This document shows, piece by piece, positions 7,912 to 51,690 of a DNA stretch of 64,000 nucleotides. How positions within the stretch are numbered: the stretch's first letter is position 1; each line of letters starts with the position of its first letter. Below the pieces are notes generated by a model. That model did no database searches, was not told the origin of the DNA, and was given only the letters and a program-made list of their open reading frames with translations. The stretch covers positions 19,220,539 to 19,284,538 of the forward strand of contig OZ023267.1 of NCBI GenBank assembly GCA_964006375.1, written 5' to 3'. The translations under genes were made by a program, and so were the position numbers. The DNA comes from Tillus elongatus. Taxonomy: Eukaryota; Arthropoda; Insecta; Coleoptera; Cleridae.

Positions 7912-8500
7912 ACCGATAACTCAAAAAATAATGGACCGATCTTGATAAAATTTGCAGAGTACCTTCCTTTTGCAAGTGGCTTGGATAAGTTCGTTAGCCA
8001 GGAAAATCTGACCAGGTTTTCCCGGAAAATTTTGTGTTTTCTTTATAAAAAAATTCATATCTCCGGAAATAACAAAGTAAGGGCAACCAAATTTGGTACG
8101 CGTGTTTGTATTATAAAGAGTGAACTCTGTACCAAAATTTAAGTCCATAGCTTTAAAGACAAAGAAGTTATGGGCAGTTAAAGCAATAAATGTAGGAGTT
8201 TTCCTCAAAACGTCAAACTCGCAATATTAAGCGTAAAAATTGGCAATGTTTAGGCAAAGAATGTAAAACAAATACCATTTGTGAAAAGAAAATGTTGCAA
8301 GAAGGGTGTTCTGCAAACCCTTAAGTTTCAGATTCAACCGTCATTGCCCTTCATTTTACTCAAACGTTTACAGGAAATCCATTTCAAATAGACCCTTTCT
8401 CTGGTGCTTTGGCTGTCAGTTTAGTTAAGTTTGGTAGCTGTTTGGATATTTATTTGTAGGTTTAGTGAAATTTATGGTTTAACAGCCTATAATTTTTTTT
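7775..8500 (+). repeat. TA-core family copy
   Basis: It begins with a degenerate palindrome (TTAGCAAATTTTTTTTTAAA / AAATTCGCTTATGGGGAG), has almost no first block, then the TA array, CCGACCGATAACTCAAAAAA and the long block with AACGTCAAACTCGCAATATT and AATAGACCCTTTCTCTGGTG. Confidence 0.8.
7836..7908. repeat. (TA)n array
   Basis: About 72 bp. It is the core of the copy at 7775-8500. Confidence 0.95.
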
Positions 8501-8530
8501 AGCTAATTATCGTGGAACAAATTTGTTAAT

Positions 8531-9505
8531 GCATTTTTGCATTTTTTATCGAAATATGATGCGTTTATCTTAAAAAAAAATCTGGACGCAGTAAGTGCGT
8601 TTTGGTTGCGAATTTTCGGTAAATTTGCAGTTAAGCTCCCGAACGCTTTTCAAAACACTGTTTTCAGAAACCTGCCTAGAGCCCCCCCTGGATCCACAAA
8701 CCCCAAGAAAAATTTGTTGTTCACACTCCCCAAGGAAGTTACGGGACCAGGAGTGAGTAGGGGTGCATAATTTTTTAGCTAATTTTTTTAGAACAAATTC
8801 GTTAATGTAATTTTGCATTTTTTATCGAAATATGATGCGTTTATAAGAAAAAAATCTGGACGCAGTAAGTGCGTTTTGGTAGCGAATTTCCGGTAAATTT
8901 GCAGTTTAGCTCCCGAACGCTTTTCAAAACACTGTTTTCAGAAACCTGCCTAGAGCCCCCCCTGGATCCACAAACCCCAAGAAAAATTTGTTGTTCACAC
9001 TCCCCAAGGAAGATACGGGACCAGGAATGAGTAGGAGTGCATAATTTTTTTAGCTAATTTTTGTAGAACAAATTCGTGAATGCATTTTTCCATTTTTTGT
9101 CGAAATATGATGCGTTTGCAAGAAAAAATCTGGACGCAGTAAGTGCGTTTTGGTAGCGAATTTTCGATAAATTTGCAGTTTAGCTCCCGAACGATTTTCA
9201 AAAAACTGTTTTCAGAAACCTGCCTAGGCCCCCACCCCTCTGGATCCACAAACCCAACAAAAAATTTCTTGTTCACACTCCCCAAGGAAGTTACGGGACC
9301 AGGAGTGAGTAGGGGTGTATAATTTTTTTAAACTAATTTTCGTAGAACAAATTCGTTAATGCATTTTTGCATTTTTTATCGAAATATGATGCGTTTGTAA
9401 GAAAAAAATCTGGACGCAGTAAGTGCGTTTTGGTAGCAAATTTTCGGTAAATTTGCAGTTTAGCTCCCGAACGTTTTTCAAAAAACTGTTCAGAAACCTG
9501 CAGGT
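8531..9505. repeat. 275-bp tandem array, four copies
   Basis: The landmark TCTGGACGCAGTAAGTGCG recurs at 8581, 8855, 9129 and 9409 (steps of 274, 274 and 280 bp). Each unit also has CATTTTTTATCGAAATATGA, TTTGCAGTTTAGCTCCCGAA, TGGATCCACAAACCC and TTACGGGACCAGGAGTGAGT. The fourth unit is cut short. The minus-strand ORFs of 66-96 codons in the units arise from the repeat, and I see no domain in them. Half of the unit is related to 60590-61140. Confidence 0.9.
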
Positions 9506-11411: not shown

Positions 11412-11850
11412 AATTCCCACGTTTTCGGCACGTTTTACCGATAACATAAGTATACAATAATTGCCGCCAAAGGAATCGTTGTTAATTTAGCTAACTTTCT
11501 CAAGACTATTACAGATGGACACTTTTTAGATAAAGCAGTAGGGATAGCGCAAAGACCTTGTCCGGCGATAAAAATACAATACACTCTGGAATTTGCCTAC
11601 GACTAGTGTCTCATCTCGGTTCGATCTCTTTACCTGAGATCCGATATATAAGTTGATGTTAGTTTTTTAAGTATTTAGAATGTTTCATCCTCTGATGACG
11701 CTAACTTGGTCAGTGAAACGATCGTCAGGTCTTTTAAAATGTGTTGTGGTGATTTGGGTTCTCAAAGTGTACTTACCAGTGCTCATCACAAGTTCCAATC
11801 TTCACTTAGTGAATTAACATTACCAGTTTACAAGATATTAGTTAGCACGT
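11412..11850 (+). mobile_element. PLE-A 3' end
   Basis: This is the 3' untranslated part after the endonuclease stop, leading to the hammerhead-like core and then GTGTTGTGGTGATTTGGGTT and AGTGCTCATCAC. The same terminal sequence recurs at 20.0, 39.4, 50.1 and 55.8 kb, and it defines the PLE-A terminal repeat. Confidence 0.7.
11680..11745 (+). ncRNA. Hammerhead-like ribozyme motif, PLE-A
   Basis: Core CTGATGA (11692-11698), stem II CGCTAAC/GTCAGTG with one mismatch, GAAA (11715-11718), a self-complementary CGATCG (11719-11724) as stem III, and the GUC cleavage triplet ending at 11726. AGG follows and can pair with CCT before the core (short stem I). One extra base sits between the core and stem II compared with the textbook motif, so activity is uncertain. 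Hammerheads are known in PLEs. Confidence 0.6.
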
Positions 11851-16865: not shown

Positions 16866-17330
16866 TTTTAGCGAATTTTTCATAAAACGAAAAATTCACT
16901 AATGAGGAGATCTGATATATGTCGTACCGATAACACAAAAAATATATTGGGCCGATTTTACCGAAATTTGGTACGTACCTTCATTTTGTAACTGTCTTGG
17001 ACAAGTTCGTTAGATTGCACCACTTTTTCCGGGAAATTTTTAGGTTTCCATTCGGAAATTTTTTGTATCTCTGAAAATAACAGAACTATGACGACCAAAT
17101 TTGGCATATAGGTTTTACTATCAAACTTACCCTACATGCTGAAATTCAGATCTCTAAGTTAAAATTAAAAAAAGGTTATAGGCATTTAAACAAACAAAAA
17201 TTGGGTGCCACTGGTAATCGAAGGAAAGCACAAGAACAAAATATTTTGTGTGATGCACAAAACCCAAAACCAATTTAATATTACATACAACGGTTAAGTT
17301 TCCTTGACGCAAAAATGGTCCAAGGCTGAC
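16866..17330 (+). repeat. TA-core copy without a TA array
   Basis: Terminal palindrome TTTTAGCGAATTTTTCATAA / GAAAAATTCACTAATGAGG, then directly GTCGTACCGATAACAC and the long block (TTGGGTGCCACTGGTAATC). The first block and the microsatellite have been lost, leaving only ATATATG. Confidence 0.75.
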
Positions 17331-17700
17331 AATTTACAAAACTGTTAGTTACACAGCTTTATCTATAAAATTTTATGCAAACTAGAGTTGTCGTGACAAC
17401 ATACTACCTGGTCCTGCAGCGAGATGGCGTCCCTGTCGTATCTCTCACAATGTCTGACCTTTTGCAATAACTTCTGTTACAATTGACTTAAATAGTATAG
17501 CAGTACAGATAACGTCATCTGTCTTTGTCTAACACTGTAAATACTGCATTACTGAATCTGAAGAGATGTCAAGGAGTATATTAATATTAATTTCGAATAA
17601 CGTTATTTTTGTTTGGTCAAAAACCTCGAAAATTGGTATACAACCACGTCTGTCTCTGTTCTTTTAATTTGTATATTTTCGTTTTAATCACTTAAAGAAT
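17331..17700. other. Unassigned sequence
   Basis: Contains ACAACATACTACCTGGTCC-like unique sequence. Nothing recognised. Confidence 0.35.
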
Positions 17701-17836
17701 TTGAGAGATATAGATTTTTTTAATATTTTTTAATTTTTGTTAAGAAAAATTGGGCGTTAAGATCTGATGAACGAACTCATTCAAGTCATTAACAAAATAA
17801 GGGTAATTCCCAAATATTTGGTCCAAATCAGTGAAG

Positions 17837-19474: not shown

Positions 19475-19927
19475 CATTTTAGCTGACCATGAAAATGGGT
19501 TCCAGATATCTCTCTTTAGTGAATTTTCTTAATTAACTAAAAACAATTTTCGTCTGTTTTAGCTCCCTAGTTTCCTAGCTTCAATCTCAAAATTAAATGT
19601 AAGCTTTAAATACACAATTAATTAAATTGTGACTTGAAACACATTCGACGACTGTTTTGATCTTAGATGACGTACTTTTAAATTTAAAGATAAAAGAACA
19701 ATCCGTCCTTATTGTCTTCGTTAAACCTTGATATTTCCACCATAGGCTACGTTTTCAGTCTAAAACTGTAATTGGGGCCGTGCATCAAGCTATAAATATA
19801 GTGTATTTTAAAAATGTATTAAATCTCCCACATAAAAAACAATCACTTGACAAATTTTCAGTTTCATGTCATCTGTCATTCTAACGCAGTAATTGTTGGC
19901 AAGTGATGTAAACGGTCAAGCAGACTT

Positions 19928-20118
19928 GAAGAACCCAAATCACCACAACACATTTTAAAAGACCCAGCGATCGTTTCGCTAACCAAGAATATTTTCATCA
20001 TCTGATAACGCTAACTTGGTTAGCGAAACGATCGTTAGGTCTTTTAAAATGTGTTGTGGTGATTTGGGTTCTCAGAATGTGCTTGTCAGTGCTCATCACA
20101 GGTTCCAATCTTCACTTA
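19928..20118. mobile_element. PLE-A inverted terminal-repeat remnant
   Basis: Two head-to-head copies of the PLE-A end. The left (minus) has GAACCCAAATCACCACAACA and CGATCGTTTCGCTAACCAAG. The right (plus) has GTTAGCGAAACGATCG, GTGTTGTGGTGATTTGGG and AGTGCTCATCACAGGTTCC. The right copy holds a hammerhead-like core, CTGATAA at 20002-20008, with GAAA at 20025-20028. The G8-to-A change in the core should abolish cleavage, although stem II (CGCTAAC/GTTAGCG) is perfect. Confidence 0.65.
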
Positions 20119-20519
20119 GCGCGTGTAAACGGTCCTTGGAATTCTTGTGGGCGAGATTTCTCGATCGCTAGTTCGGGTAGTATTTTGTATGCACATTATT
20201 TGTATTCTTTGGTTCTCGTTGATGTATGCCTGTAGAATGTATCAATCTACCCATAGCAGCTAACTATTCTGTCTTTGTCAAACATTGGACTTCAACACTT
20301 GAGTCGTTTTAATTCGTGTCTTCAGATTTTATTTTTTATTCGGAAAAAACTAAAATTTTGTGAATCAAATTACTTAAAATTCACAACAGAGGTTTGCATG
20401 CACCATTTCTTGTTACATGTAAAGTCTCATTCCTATTACTCTAATACTTTTCAAAATGTAGCGTATTACAATATTTTTTTTTATATTTTTGGGGAAGAAA
20501 AGTACGATATAGCTGATTT

Positions 20520-21195: not shown

Positions 21196-22060
21196 TTAGA
21201 GAACCAGGGCTTTTAAGTGGCTGAAGAGGGGGTCAGGATGAGAGAAGCAGACAGACGCCCATGGAGATGAGGAAAAGTAATCCCGCATTTCGCTCAGTTC
21301 GCGGAGTTGTAGTGCCAAACGATACGTGGGTGTGATGACTGTGTGACCTCGGGTTGCATTGCGCAGGAAGCAGTGACCATGCCGTGGTCTGAGCGAACGG
21401 GGGGGGGGGGGGGGTGTGACTGATATCTTATAGCATTCAGGTTTTGTAGTAAGAAGGAGATCCCAGGGATTTGAGCTGTGTGTTGGGATGCGAGGAAAGT
21501 CAGTAGGTTGCTGAACCATATCGGCTAAAGAATTGCTGACGGCAAAGGCCTCCGCTGCTCTCCCTTGTGGATCGGTTTCTGAAGATCCTAGCCATTCCTT
21601 ATTATGGACATTGAAGTCACCAAGAATAGTGACCTCGGAGGAAGGATATTCGGAAATCAGATGGTCGGTTTTCTCAGAAAGGTAGTGAAAGAGCTGGACA
21701 AAGTTGTTGTCAGAAGGTGACCGGTAAATGCAACAGATGAATTTACTTGCAGCCCTGAGAGAGAGTTTTGTCCATGGTATGTCTTTTCTTCCAGCTTCTA
21801 AATTGGGGAGTCTAGTGCAGGGTAGATTGTTACGGACGTATACGCATACGCCTCCATGCAATCTAAAGGAAGTAAGGAACTCATACCCCGGGAAATTAAG
21901 GTGATTAGTGGCTGTTTTGGCACTGATTTGGGTTTCGGTGAGGAAGAGGAGTTGGCGCCTATTAGCCTGGAGGAAAGGTGGACGGAGTTCAGGTTAGAAT
22001 TTAGGCCACATATATTCGAGAAGGATATGTTAAATCTTGATGCTTGCGCCCCCTGTACAC
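21196..22060 (-). pseudogene. LINE-C APE-type endonuclease
   Basis: Minus-strand blocks, in order: FNISFSNICGLNSN; LLFLTETQISAKTA (catalytic Glu; frame shift just upstream); FRLHGGVCVYVRNNLPC; LSLRAASKFICCIYRSPS; VTILGDFNVHNKEWL (GDFN motif); and SDHGMVTASCAM (catalytic His). The last is in another frame because of a G16 run at 21399-21414. The domain nicks target DNA for LINE insertion. The motifs are intact but split over three frames, so no protein can be made. Confidence 0.85.
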
Positions 22061-46289: not shown

Positions 46290-46904
46290 AAATTCGTCAA
46301 TGAGGAAACTGCGACTTTAGAATTTTAAAAATATTTCTTCAAATGAGCGCTAACTAGGCCCCCTGGAATCCATATCCGGGTTTCCGTTTAATTTTGATGT
46401 GTTAACATATATACAGGGTGACGCATTTCTACGGTAAAGCTCAATATAATTATTATTATACAAGAGACGAGAAAAAATTGTACAAGTTAATTATAGGGTG
46501 TCTTGAGCTGCCTCTTATAAAATTATTTTGACAATCACGGGCTGACCCATAAGTCGTTAGTGATTCCTAAAAAATTTTTTTCGAACAGCCTCATTTTATT
46601 GCATTTTTCATCGAAATATGTTTGTAAGAAAAAAAATTTAAACGCAGTAAGTGCGTTTTGGTAGCAAATTTTCATTAAATTGTATACGTTACTTATAGGG
46701 TGTCTTGAGCTGCATCTTATAAAATTATTTTGACAATAACTGGGTGGCCCATAAGTCGTTGGTGATACCTTTTTTTTAACATTCCTTATTGCATTTTTTT
46801 TCATCGAAACATGATGCATGTTTGTAAAAAAAATCGAGAGGTAAATGCGTTTTGTACGTTTTCATTAAATGCTTCAAATTTCAATAACTCCATTTGCTAT
46901 TAAC
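46290..46904. repeat. TA-core terminus, leader modules, 310-unit start
   Basis: First block (46310-46400), junction ACAGGGTGACGCATTTCTAC, leader GGGTGTCTTGAGCTGC twice (46497 and 46697, a duplication of about 200 bp), hairpin AACGCAGTAAGTGCGTTTTG, then unit interior up to AACATAAGGTTTGTTA, where the ribozyme element is inserted. Confidence 0.7.
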
Positions 46905-47109
46905 ATAAGGTTTGTTACTAAGTGAGTGATGAACGTGTCGCCACCTAGTTCGGAACCAAGTACTATGTTGTCACGCCCGCTCCAAATAACACAGAGTGTT
47001 AAACCTAGAGACAGTATACAACTAACTAACAATTTAAAAAATTGTTAGCCCTGGCCCATTTCTACCCCAATATAGGGACAAAGTATGTTAGACTAGATGC
47101 ATTCTCGCA

Positions 47110-47172
47110 ACAATTAGAACCGTAGACCGGTTTCGCTCTCATTAGAGCTCTTCAGTACGGCATACTAATTGT
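47110..47172 (-). ncRNA. Hammerhead ribozyme (type I layout)
   Basis: Exact reverse complement of 47496-47558, so the same 63-nt motif reads on the minus strand. See that entry for the structure. Confidence 0.8.
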
Positions 47173-47495
47173 AGCAAAAATGCACCAAAAATAACACGGC
47201 TATCGTATAGCCACTCTTAAAACACTAACTGAGTGGTGAACGTGTCGCCACCTAGTTCGGAACCAAGTACTATGTTGTCACGCCCGCTCCAAATAACACA
47301 GTGTTAAACCTAGAGACAGTATACAACTAACTAACAATTTAAAAAATTGTTAGCCCTGGCCCATTTCTACCCCAATTTGGAGCGGTCGTGACAACATAGT
47401 ACTTGGTTCCGAACTAGGTGGCGACACGTTCACCACTCACTTAGTGTTTAAGACTGGCTATACGATAGCCGTGTTATTTTTGGTGCATTTTTGCT

Positions 47496-47558
47496 ACAAT
47501 TAGTATGCCGTACTGAAGAGCTCTAATGAGAGCGAAACCGGTCTACGGTTCTAATTGT
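47496..47558 (+). ncRNA. Hammerhead ribozyme (type I layout)
   Basis: Stem I 5' strand ACAATTAG (47496-47503) and CCGTA (47508-47512). Core CTGAAGA (47513-47519, fits CUGANGA). Stem II GCTCT-AATG-AGAGC (47520-47533). GAAA (47534-47537). Stem III is the self-complementary CCGG (47538-47541). Cleavage triplet GUC with predicted cut after 47543. Stem I 3' strand TACGG (47544-47548) and CTAATTGT (47551-47558). Every conserved core base is present and both parts of stem I pair fully around a small internal loop. A 4-base palindromic stem III is what dimer-acting hammerheads of retroelements show. Confidence 0.85.
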
Positions 47559-47592
47559 TGCGAGAATGCATCTAGTCTTATAAGGTTTGTTA

Positions 47593-49965: not shown

Positions 49966-50064
49966 GCTTAAACTGCCAAACTTGAAATCAACAATGAATT
50001 TTGCCATTGTAATATTTAGAACACAGTATGTTTTAGTGATTTTTCTTTAAAAAAGTCAATAAGT

Positions 50065-50160
50065 ACACTTGGAGAACCCAAATCACCACAACACATATTT
50101 CAGAGACATTACGATCGTTTCGTTGACCATGTCAACATCTTCAGAGGAAGAAAATTTCTA
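50065..50160 (-). ncRNA. Hammerhead-like motif and 3' end, PLE-A
   Basis: Minus strand: CTGAAGA (50144-50138), stem II with perfect GTTGAC/GTCAAC, GAAA (50121-50118), palindromic CGATCG (50117-50112), GUA triplet, then the PLE-A end GTGTTGTGGTGATTTGGG. As in the other PLE-A copies, one extra pyrimidine separates core and stem II. Stem I pairing is poor. Confidence 0.5.
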
Positions 50161-50755
50161 AAAATTAAACTACTAGCTACCGTGTATTTATATCGCGTCT
50201 AGATAAACGAACTAGTCCGAAGTAAAATTGTAGTCGAAGACCCATCGTTTGTTTATTGTGTAGTCAAACTACGAGGTCGAAGACCTACTTTAATCTTCTG
50301 GTCGACATCTTTATGAGCCCTTATCTAATATAAGGATAATAGCTTTAAAAGGAACGGTACCGAGTTATTTTAGGTATTTGCACGTTCACTTTGGATCTAT
50401 AAATTTACGATGTGGATATTGGAGCTAGCCGACAACCACATCTGGTGAGAGAAACACAATAACCTCCGCTCATCTTTTTTATATAGAAACCAAACCTGGG
50501 TGTTTGGCTCACATTGTTAACTCCAACAAAGGATAAATAATTCAACTAAAATACTACATAAAAAATATATTTATATTGATTTTAATTCTTCGTAAACAGT
50601 ATTTATATTGACTTCATAGATACACAGAAAACGAAAGGGTCTTTAAGTCGAGACAAGCGTAAAGATTAGTATATGTATAGACCAGCCGAGTTATTGACAG
50701 TAATTTATTATTCTACCTGACAAATTAGGAGTGTTTAAGTGGCCAAATGCAAAGT
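50161..50755 (-). mobile_element. PLE-A 3' untranslated region
   Basis: Between the endonuclease end and the hammerhead-like motif. Contains GTCGAAGAC repeats (50234, 50270). It is longer than the equivalent 200-300 bp in other copies. Confidence 0.5.
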
Positions 50756-51293
50756 GAAAATAAAGGGCTTGAAATTAAAGGTGCCGCACGATTCAATGAA
50801 GTTTTGTTCTTAATCGACCTTGATATTAAAATACTTTCTAATGAATCAAGCATAGTTTGATGTTTTAAATTTTTGACAAGTTTTAAATTTTCTTTATCAC
50901 ACACGATTTGTCCACCGTACTCTATCGTAAATGTGCCAGATGTTCACGAAATCTGGTGGCTATGTTTCTCCTAGTTTGACCCACGTATTTAAGATTGCAA
51001 TCTTTGCGACTAATCGCATAAATACCGGACATTTCAGTAAGTTTGTCTTTATCTTTCGTATTACCCAACAAATTTTTTAAATTACTTTTCGTCGAAAAAG
51101 TCAAATGTAAATCGGCTTTCTTAAAAATACCTTCCAAACCCTTTGTGATTCGTGGTTCATAAGGTAAACACACAAATTTTTTTCCTATTTTATCTTTCTT
51201 AAATGTCGTACATTCAGATCTCATTTTCTTTGTTCTGAGTTTGTTAACCAATTTGTCTATTAAACCATCCGAGTAACCGTTATATCTCGCCAC
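50756..51293 (-). pseudogene. PLE-A connector and GIY-YIG endonuclease
   Basis: NVARYNGYSDGLIDKLVNKL, RTKKMRSECTTFKKDKI, VCLPYEPRITKGLEGIFK (connector), LLGNTKDKDKLTEMSGIYA, CNLKYVGQTRRNIATRF and REHLAHLR: GIY and YVG motifs, Arg and Glu-His of the nuclease core. After a frameshift at about 50930 it continues DKENLKLVKNLKHQTMLDSL and ISRSIKNKTSLNRAAP to a stop near 50745. It is the least damaged PLE-A endonuclease here. A frameshift near 51300 also separates it from the RT. Confidence 0.85.
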
Positions 51294-51318
51294 ATTTTTT
51301 ATGTATTTTAATTCTGTA

Positions 51319-51690
51319 TTAAATCTTATTTTTACTTAACGGAAATTTAATTAATCTGTTTACTAGGAAATTTAAACTAGCCGTTTTTTGTGCAAACGTA
51401 TAATGTGAGTCGTTAGGAATATAACTAATAGTAGCCGTTTCCTTCCTGTATACATGGAATTCAAGCGAGCCATTATTTTTATTTTTAATACCTAGTGCAT
51501 CTAGGAACGAAAGTTTATTGTTGATTTCTATTTCGTGGGTAAATTTTACTGAATCAAATTGACTATTTAATTTTTCAGTAAATTCTTCAACCTTACCTAT
51601 ATTTGTGTCAAACACTGCAAAAATATCATCGACATAACGAAACCAAACTCTAGGGAAATACCCATTTTTATATAATTGATTTATTACCCA
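51319..51690 (-). pseudogene. PLE-A reverse transcriptase, C-terminal part
   Basis: WVINQLYKNGYFPRVWFR, YVDDIFAVFDTNIGKVEEF (catalytic YVDD box), KLNSQFDSVKFTHEIEIN, NKLSFLDALGIKN, FHVYRKETATISYIPNDS and HYTFAQKTASLNFLVNR match Penelope-type RT motif C onward. The 5' part is absent and replaced at about 51690 by a TA-core leader (GGTGGCCGATAAGTCGTTGG). The 174-codon ORF extends into that repeat, so its first about 50 residues are not RT. Confidence 0.88.

Follow-up and report, generated by a model that had tools for sequence, protein, structure and literature searches.

Metazoan non-LTR retrozymes carry a type I hammerhead ribozyme (HHR) in a tandem unit of 150-450 bp, with target-site duplications (TSDs) longer than 4 bp and a GC content below 50% (Cervera and de la Pena 2020, PMC7229834). 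In the newt and axolotl, HHR_Amex1 has a stem III of a single pair with a palindromic tetraloop, and the HHRs of amphibian retrozymes are reported to need a dimer (PMC7229834). Plant LTR retrozymes, for which circular RNA is made in plants, possess a type III HHR, LTRs, a PBS, a PPT, and 4-bp TSDs (PMC7761336, PMC7229834). Mobilization of metazoan retrozymes by Penelope-like elements (PLEs) has been proposed before (PMC7229834, PMC7761336, PMC11722881), with PLEs named only as strong or likely candidates for the mobilizer (PMC7229834, PMC7761336). For Poseidon of Anolis, the purified PLE protein is reported to cut and extend both strands in vitro (Frangieh 2024, PMC11167929), with reverse transcription starting at two internal RNA sites and the tail corresponding to the stretch between them (PMC11167929). 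For Penelope of Adineta, the literature describes TSDs of 8-10 bp and head-to-head inverted pseudo-LTRs, one of which bears a tail (PMC3846280).

Here, we describe an HHR-bearing element in the window, by which we mean the whole stretch of 64,000 nucleotides that was analyzed, together with related loci fetched from the same genome. The element is a metazoan non-LTR retrozyme, non-autonomous and belonging to a very abundant family. It is like the described metazoan retrozymes in its type I HHR, unit length (307 bp), GC content (41%), TSDs longer than 4 bp, and lack of a coding frame (no ORF of at least 100 aa). Head-to-head twin arms, two end zones, and TSDs of mostly 12-13 bp distinguish this family, and the main text of PMC7229834 makes no mention of inverted or head-to-head arms. 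The window motif shares a minimal palindromic stem III with HHR_Amex1, while unit and host differ. Plant LTR retrozymes are likewise HHR-bearing, non-autonomous retroelements, but identity with them is ruled out by the type I topology of the HHR and the 12-bp TSD. The element resembles Adineta Penelope in the arrangement of its arms and, as modeled here, Poseidon in its two internal start sites, the cutting and extension of both strands, and a minimal HHR. We propose that PLE machinery probably copies the retrozyme RNA, itself probably a circle, into cDNA, using a separate internal start zone for each of the two target strands.

The hammerhead motif and its core

A first-pass annotation of the window had claimed a 63-nt hammerhead on the plus strand and an identical copy on the minus strand. 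Both were located, and the two copies agree at 63/63 nt:

47496..47558, plus strand: hammerhead ribozyme, plus copy, predicted cleavage 47543/47544
47110..47172, minus strand: hammerhead ribozyme, minus copy, predicted cleavage 47125/47124
47537..47542, plus strand: self-complementary stem III, ACCGGU, read from the sequence

Type I hammerheads have the core CUGANGA ... GAAA ... A15.1-U16.1, C17 and three helices, of which stem I is open-ended. The window motif follows this rule in both core and helices: CUGAAGA, GAAA, A15.1-U16.1, and C17 are all there, in line with the claim that every constrained position agrees, and the 5-bp stem II with its AAUG loop is likewise borne out by the sequence. 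Stem III is palindromic, as had been said, but its extent needs correcting, since it reads ACCGGU with A15.1 and U16.1 included, rather than CCGG, and has no loop. Both hammerhead motifs are real, and their core is intact.

The core pattern CTGANGA-N14-GAAACCGGTC matches exactly at 47513-47543 (plus) and 47125-47155 (minus). Against these two exact matches, dinucleotide shuffles averaged 0.15 matches with up to three mismatches allowed, and only 1/100 shuffles gave two, which upholds the earlier view that a chance origin is unlikely. Genome-wide, we found 19,563 exact cores (9,739 + 9,824) in the 1.72-Gb assembly of 30 contigs, while the reversed core pattern, used as a control, had 0 matches in the whole assembly. 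Position 7, where the hammerhead core is free to vary, was A, C, G, or T among the listed core sites. When units were compared across loci (~159 unit-equivalents from 39 loci, with u1 as the nucleotide 3' of the cleavage site), the core positions were nearly invariant, and divergence was 0.80% in the HHR vs 1.82% at u38-216.

The covariance-model search that the first-pass annotation had suggested as a check went against the motif. The best Rfam match, Hammerhead_HH9, had a poor, sub-threshold score (24.8 bits vs a cut-off of 52, E 0.0013 in 1 kb), and no Rfam match to the window motif was found at gathering level. We attribute this to stem III, which is expected to be looped in the alignment of the HH9 model and is loopless in the motif. 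In our judgment, the conservation across the genome outweighs the poor covariance score, and cleavage is predicted. A further Rfam match, to MIR841 at 47222-47446 (77.8 bits, cut-off 200), was rejected as an artifact of the inverted arms, and comparison of the sequence with phage records gave no match.

A twin-armed retrozyme insertion

Going beyond the first-pass annotation, we found that the inverted pair of hammerheads in the window represents the two arms of a single insertion (46918-47579), in which a minus arm and a plus arm meet head to head, overlap by 2 nt at the junction, and are flanked by a TSD:

46905..46917: left TSD, ATAAGGTTTGTTA, exact 13-bp direct repeat with 47580-47592
46918..47376, minus strand: left arm, 1.5 retrozyme units, zone B at its outer (3') end, ...CATCACTCACTTAG (unit mapping)
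47375..47579, plus strand: right arm, 0.67 unit, zone A at its outer (3') end, ...ATGCATCTAGTCTT (unit mapping)
47580..47592: right TSD, ATAAGGTTTGTTA, exact 13-bp direct repeat with 46905-46917

Also new are the 307-bp tandem unit, which is present in thousands of copies, and the PLE copies in the same window. The tandem copies have a fixed 307-nt period, with up to ~20 units in one arm (L036), and the mean divergence of units was 1.5% (~159 unit-equivalents from 39 loci). The type I motif, tandem unit, and TSD support the earlier assignment of the hammerhead to the retrozyme or PLE kind. No ORF of at least 100 aa overlaps 46918-47579, and the retrozyme thus has neither a reverse transcriptase (RT) nor a GIY-YIG domain. 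Positions in locus L001 are window positions minus 45879.

Two end zones

The outer ends were mapped for 51 stretches of the element from the fetched loci, of which 44 were measurable once five stretches reaching the end of the fetched sequence and two fragments shorter than 150 bp were left out. An outer end in each of the two zones, A and B (A+B), was found in 31/44 insertions and thus in 31 of the 33 with both ends recognized. There were no A+A insertions (0/44) and two B+B insertions (2/44), one in TA repeats (L041) and one a five-segment composite (L033), while a single end was recognized in 11/44 (8 A only, 3 B only, with L041:4035-5407 assigned by eye as an A end only). The 13/44 insertions that are not A+B count against our explanation. 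All but one of the 31 A+B insertions have a TSD of 9-15 bp, and the remaining one (L044) lies inside a TA array, where a TSD is not distinguishable.

In the 30 A+B insertions with a TSD, the A end falls at u34-39 (...GCATCTAGTCTTA) and the B end at u204-212 (...ACCACTCACTTAGTG), a scatter that is partly due to letters common to element and target. Between insertions, unit number is free to vary, with arms of 0.1 to ~20 units, and so is the position of the inner junction; many arms cross the hammerhead cleavage site and have their ends past it. Since most loci were chosen as best matches to the window copy (40 of 621 candidates scored), with a query that contained zone A, the sampled loci are young, and we infer that an A+A insertion would have been detected as easily as an A+B insertion. 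A second sample, drawn with a B-end query, gave 45 matches; six were fetched, of which four ran to the end of the fetched stretch and the two complete ones were both A+B (L065, with an A arm of ~10 nt identified by its end motif rather than by alignment, and L067). The orientation of neighboring cores, a count that is independent of the end zones, agrees with this result: among the first 100 listed core sites of contig C1, opposite-strand neighbors within 700 bp were head to head in 11 cases and tail to tail in 0, and one tail-to-tail pair appeared when the limit was raised to 1,300 bp.

These ends bear on two explanations based on DNA alone. A foldback DNA transposon or MITE with an incidental hammerhead would share the inverted arms and the TSD at both ends, but it requires identical inverted ends and a constant TSD length. 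This is contradicted by the difference between A and B and by TSDs of 9-15 bp, and the range of 0.1 to ~20 tandem units per arm and the shifting inner junction also speak against it, making such an origin extremely improbable. We likewise give almost no credence to satellite DNA that spread by DNA recombination and kept the ribozyme as a relic. The tandem arrays would suit a satellite, but dispersed insertions flanked by TSDs contradict it, and neither the narrow end zones nor a core better conserved than the rest of the unit favors it.

Six insertions have one arm only (L012, L025-L028, and L044:4612-4874), and since all six end in zone A, this suggests that zone A is the first start site, with the proviso that the query favored A. 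An older one-arm piece, L008:451-629, ends at B. Some retrozyme copies (L041, L044) are found inside long TA microsatellites, which obscure the TSD, and the only simple B+B insertion lies in a TA microsatellite.

Target sites

TSDs were 9-15 bp long, mostly 12-13 bp and most commonly 12 bp. Among the 29 insertions within a TSD filter of 10-15 bp, 16 had exactly 12 bp and 5 had 13 bp. A TSD of at least 9 bp was present in 30/30 A+B insertions, which had been picked knowing that a TSD was present, vs 3/293 chimeric controls; at 10 bp or more, the controls gave 0/293. GTT stood directly outside the TSD on 16/56 retrozyme sides vs a background of 1.8% (P ~4e-15), and on both sides in 2/28 insertions. 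Together, the GTT enrichment and the TSD length imply that cutting occurs preferentially ahead of GTT on either target strand, with ~12 bp between the two cuts. In PLEs, GTT lay beside the TSD on 2/10 sides, which counts against a common machinery.

Shared alleles of the arms and the template RNA

At six polymorphic sites in 30 insertions, the two arms of one insertion carried the same allele in 115/130 comparisons, while shuffled arm pairs had a mean match of 0.696 and 0/2000 shuffles reached the observed value. These sequence comparisons indicate that both arms of an insertion derive from one kind of RNA, although a match of 88% falls short of 100%, which counts against our explanation. The shared-allele test was used instead of a comparison of divergence within and between insertions, as the latter is confounded by later mutations. 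In that comparison, the six units of L024 had a divergence of 0.2% within vs 1.6% between, and other insertions were without such contrast.

Because many arms cross the cleavage site and start beyond it, a cleaved linear monomer would be no simple template unless the enzyme jumps from end to end, and a circle or a multimer fits. We favor a circle over a multimer on account of an arm with ~20 units and of some insertions whose units hardly differ from one another. The same enzyme and zones could also operate on a linear multimer transcribed from a genomic array, or by end-to-end jumping between monomers. Unprocessed RNA is reported as the main PLE substrate in vitro (Frangieh 2024, PMC11167929), and arms of more than one unit are also compatible with such a template. 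On the other hand, the 20-unit arm of L036 is simplest with one circle, and so are the near-identical units in some young insertions such as L024, although a homogeneous array could still yield these. We consider a linear template rather unlikely and retain the circle as the probable template.

Penelope-like elements of the same genome

GIY-YIG domains are abundant in this genome, with 14,221 first-look candidates, of which 150 were scored and all of those listed exceeded the Pfam cut-off. One locus (L058) has a single open frame with an RT followed by GIY-YIG, which is the PLE layout. An animal host is indicated by the size of the genome, by the PLEs present, and by the type of retrozyme. We found a PLE 3' arm in 12/15 fetched GIY-YIG loci (2 of the 12 truncated). 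A minimal hammerhead is present in several PLE copies, and its palindromic stem III, ACGATCGT, is a different one. The window contains the following PLE sequences:

11683..11814, plus strand: Penelope-like 3' arm with tail (...TTCACTTAGTG), hammerhead at 11692
19907-19917 and 20124-20134: 11-bp TSD, TGTAAACGGTC, of the Penelope-like mini-insertion, direct repeat
19918..20123: Penelope-like mini-insertion, tail present on the plus arm and absent from the minus arm
50058..51668, minus strand: decayed PLE copy with hammerhead, no-tail 3' end at 50058, by similarity to L047 and L049

When the PLE 3' arms of the window and the loci were typed, 16 were without tail, 10 had a tail, and 2 were truncated. 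Close head-to-head PLE pairs, counted where neither arm was truncated, combined one no-tail and one tail arm in 6/6 cases, a small sample from window and loci; the arms at window positions 50058 and 55886, separated by 5.8 kb, were not counted as one insertion. A TSD of 11-12 bp flanked 5/6 of these pairs, one with a single mismatch, and the sixth, L052, had none. The no-tail end reads ...CCAAGTGTACTTA and the commonest tail end ...GGTTCCAATCTTCACTTAGTG; the full tail end TTCACTTAGTG is exact in 2/10 tails, the rest being variants by at least one letter or slightly shorter.

The retrozyme B end, CTCACTTAGTG, has 10/11 letters in common with the commonest PLE tail form, and both are terminal. 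Zone A and the PLE no-tail end have only CTTA in common, which is weak on its own and counts against a shared machinery. The distance between A and B is ~171 nt in the retrozyme vs ~36 between the two ends of this genome's PLEs, and PLEs encode RT and a GIY-YIG endonuclease, whereas the retrozyme has no ORF of at least 100 aa. Taken at the level of insertion anatomy, retrozyme insertions bear the same footprint as PLEs, with stricter pairing. We conclude that the retrozyme works like a PLE, with head-to-head arms and two alternative 3' ends, but is not one.

A different mobilizer, a LINE, could produce the inversion through twin priming of the L1 kind, and the window does hold a LINE-type endonuclease fragment (21196-21861, minus strand, PF14529, E 2e-8). 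Twin priming by L1 is established, and it begins at the poly(A) 3' end and at an inner site that varies. Here, unlike in L1, both ends are narrow internal zones, one of them matching the PLE tail end, and we regard a LINE as an improbable mobilizer compared with the PLE machinery proposed above.

Predicted fold of the retrozyme RNA

The 307-nt circle is predicted to be rod-like, with an energy of -101.4 kcal/mol, and the linear unit folds more stably than its shuffles (z -6.2). Within the predicted circle, u31-37 (zone A) pairs with u213-219 and u39-43 with u206-210 (zone B), at pairing probabilities of 0.68-0.92, so that zones A and B would lie opposite each other. Their proximity is modest, as 5/307 equally spaced position pairs are as close, which counts against our explanation.

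In the best predicted fold of the monomer (-22.3 kcal/mol), the CGGU of stem III is taken up by pairing with the CUG of the core, while the catalytic fold reaches -17.0 kcal/mol and is without stem III. A monomer or circle is thus predicted to be off, with its catalytic core blocked, which counts against our explanation. Two neighboring motifs in a multimer could form a 6-bp ACCGGU stem, and the folding is consistent with the initial suggestion that these hammerheads act as dimers. Dimer behavior of PLE hammerheads was reportedly described by Lunse (2017, cited in PMC7761336), and the predicted state, off as a monomer and on as a dimer, fits this as well as the dimer behavior reported for amphibian retrozyme motifs.

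A model of retrozyme insertion

In the mechanism that we propose, tandem transcripts would be cut at the hammerhead when two adjacent motifs pair via their palindromic stem III, and the resulting monomers would then be circularized. A resident PLE would supply the protein, which would bind the retrozyme RNA and cut both target strands ~12 bp apart, after which both 3' ends would be extended by internal initiation on the RNA, from zone A for one strand and from zone B for the other. Synthesis could circle the RNA many times, and the two cDNAs would join head to head. Two properties reported for the Anolis PLE count against parts of this mechanism: no difference in start site was found between the strands, and HHR cleavage is dispensable for insertion in vitro (PMC11167929).

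The insertion anatomy provides direct sequence evidence for the PLE mobilization proposed earlier, and the limited part of the literature searched describes neither head-to-head insertions of retrozymes nor a match between retrozyme and PLE ends. A large family, sampled through its young copies, shows two narrow start zones, and the genome that houses it also contains a partner whose ends match. This makes the proposal of PLE mobilization specific enough to yield predictions for a single enzyme and a single small RNA. The findings bear on how metazoan retrozymes move and on what accounts for the pseudo-LTRs and the one-sided tail of PLEs. A wider reading, which we offer as a tentative possibility, is that retrozymes and PLEs use one integration machine. 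The assembly would hold both cut strands, with separate start sites (A and B) used together on one folded RNA circle, and both cDNAs would run round the circle. The pseudo-LTR and inverted tailed arm of PLEs would then be the same scar of rolling-circle twin priming, and the retrozyme would be a parasite with the PLE tail end.

Other repeats in the window and related loci

Elsewhere in the window, 17304-17817 is a divergent relative of the retrozyme body, with 66% identity over 17304-17448, and 17313-17817 is 74% like L049:648-1178; no intact hammerhead core of the retrozyme type was seen at 17304-17817. The central part shared by the retrozyme and this relative is possibly very frequent in the genome: a query from this region gave no candidates in a search that skips frequent words, an outcome that does not indicate absence. 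A diverged retrozyme copy that adjoins a PLE was found at L057:3001-3162, with TAATAAGAGCGAAACCGGT. Finally, the window contains a 274-bp tandem array of 3.7 copies (8489-9501) and, to the left of the retrozyme insertion, a 94-bp repeat with a spacing of 202 (46475-46770). Because GTGCGTTTTGGTAGC is common to both regions, they are probably one local repeat family.
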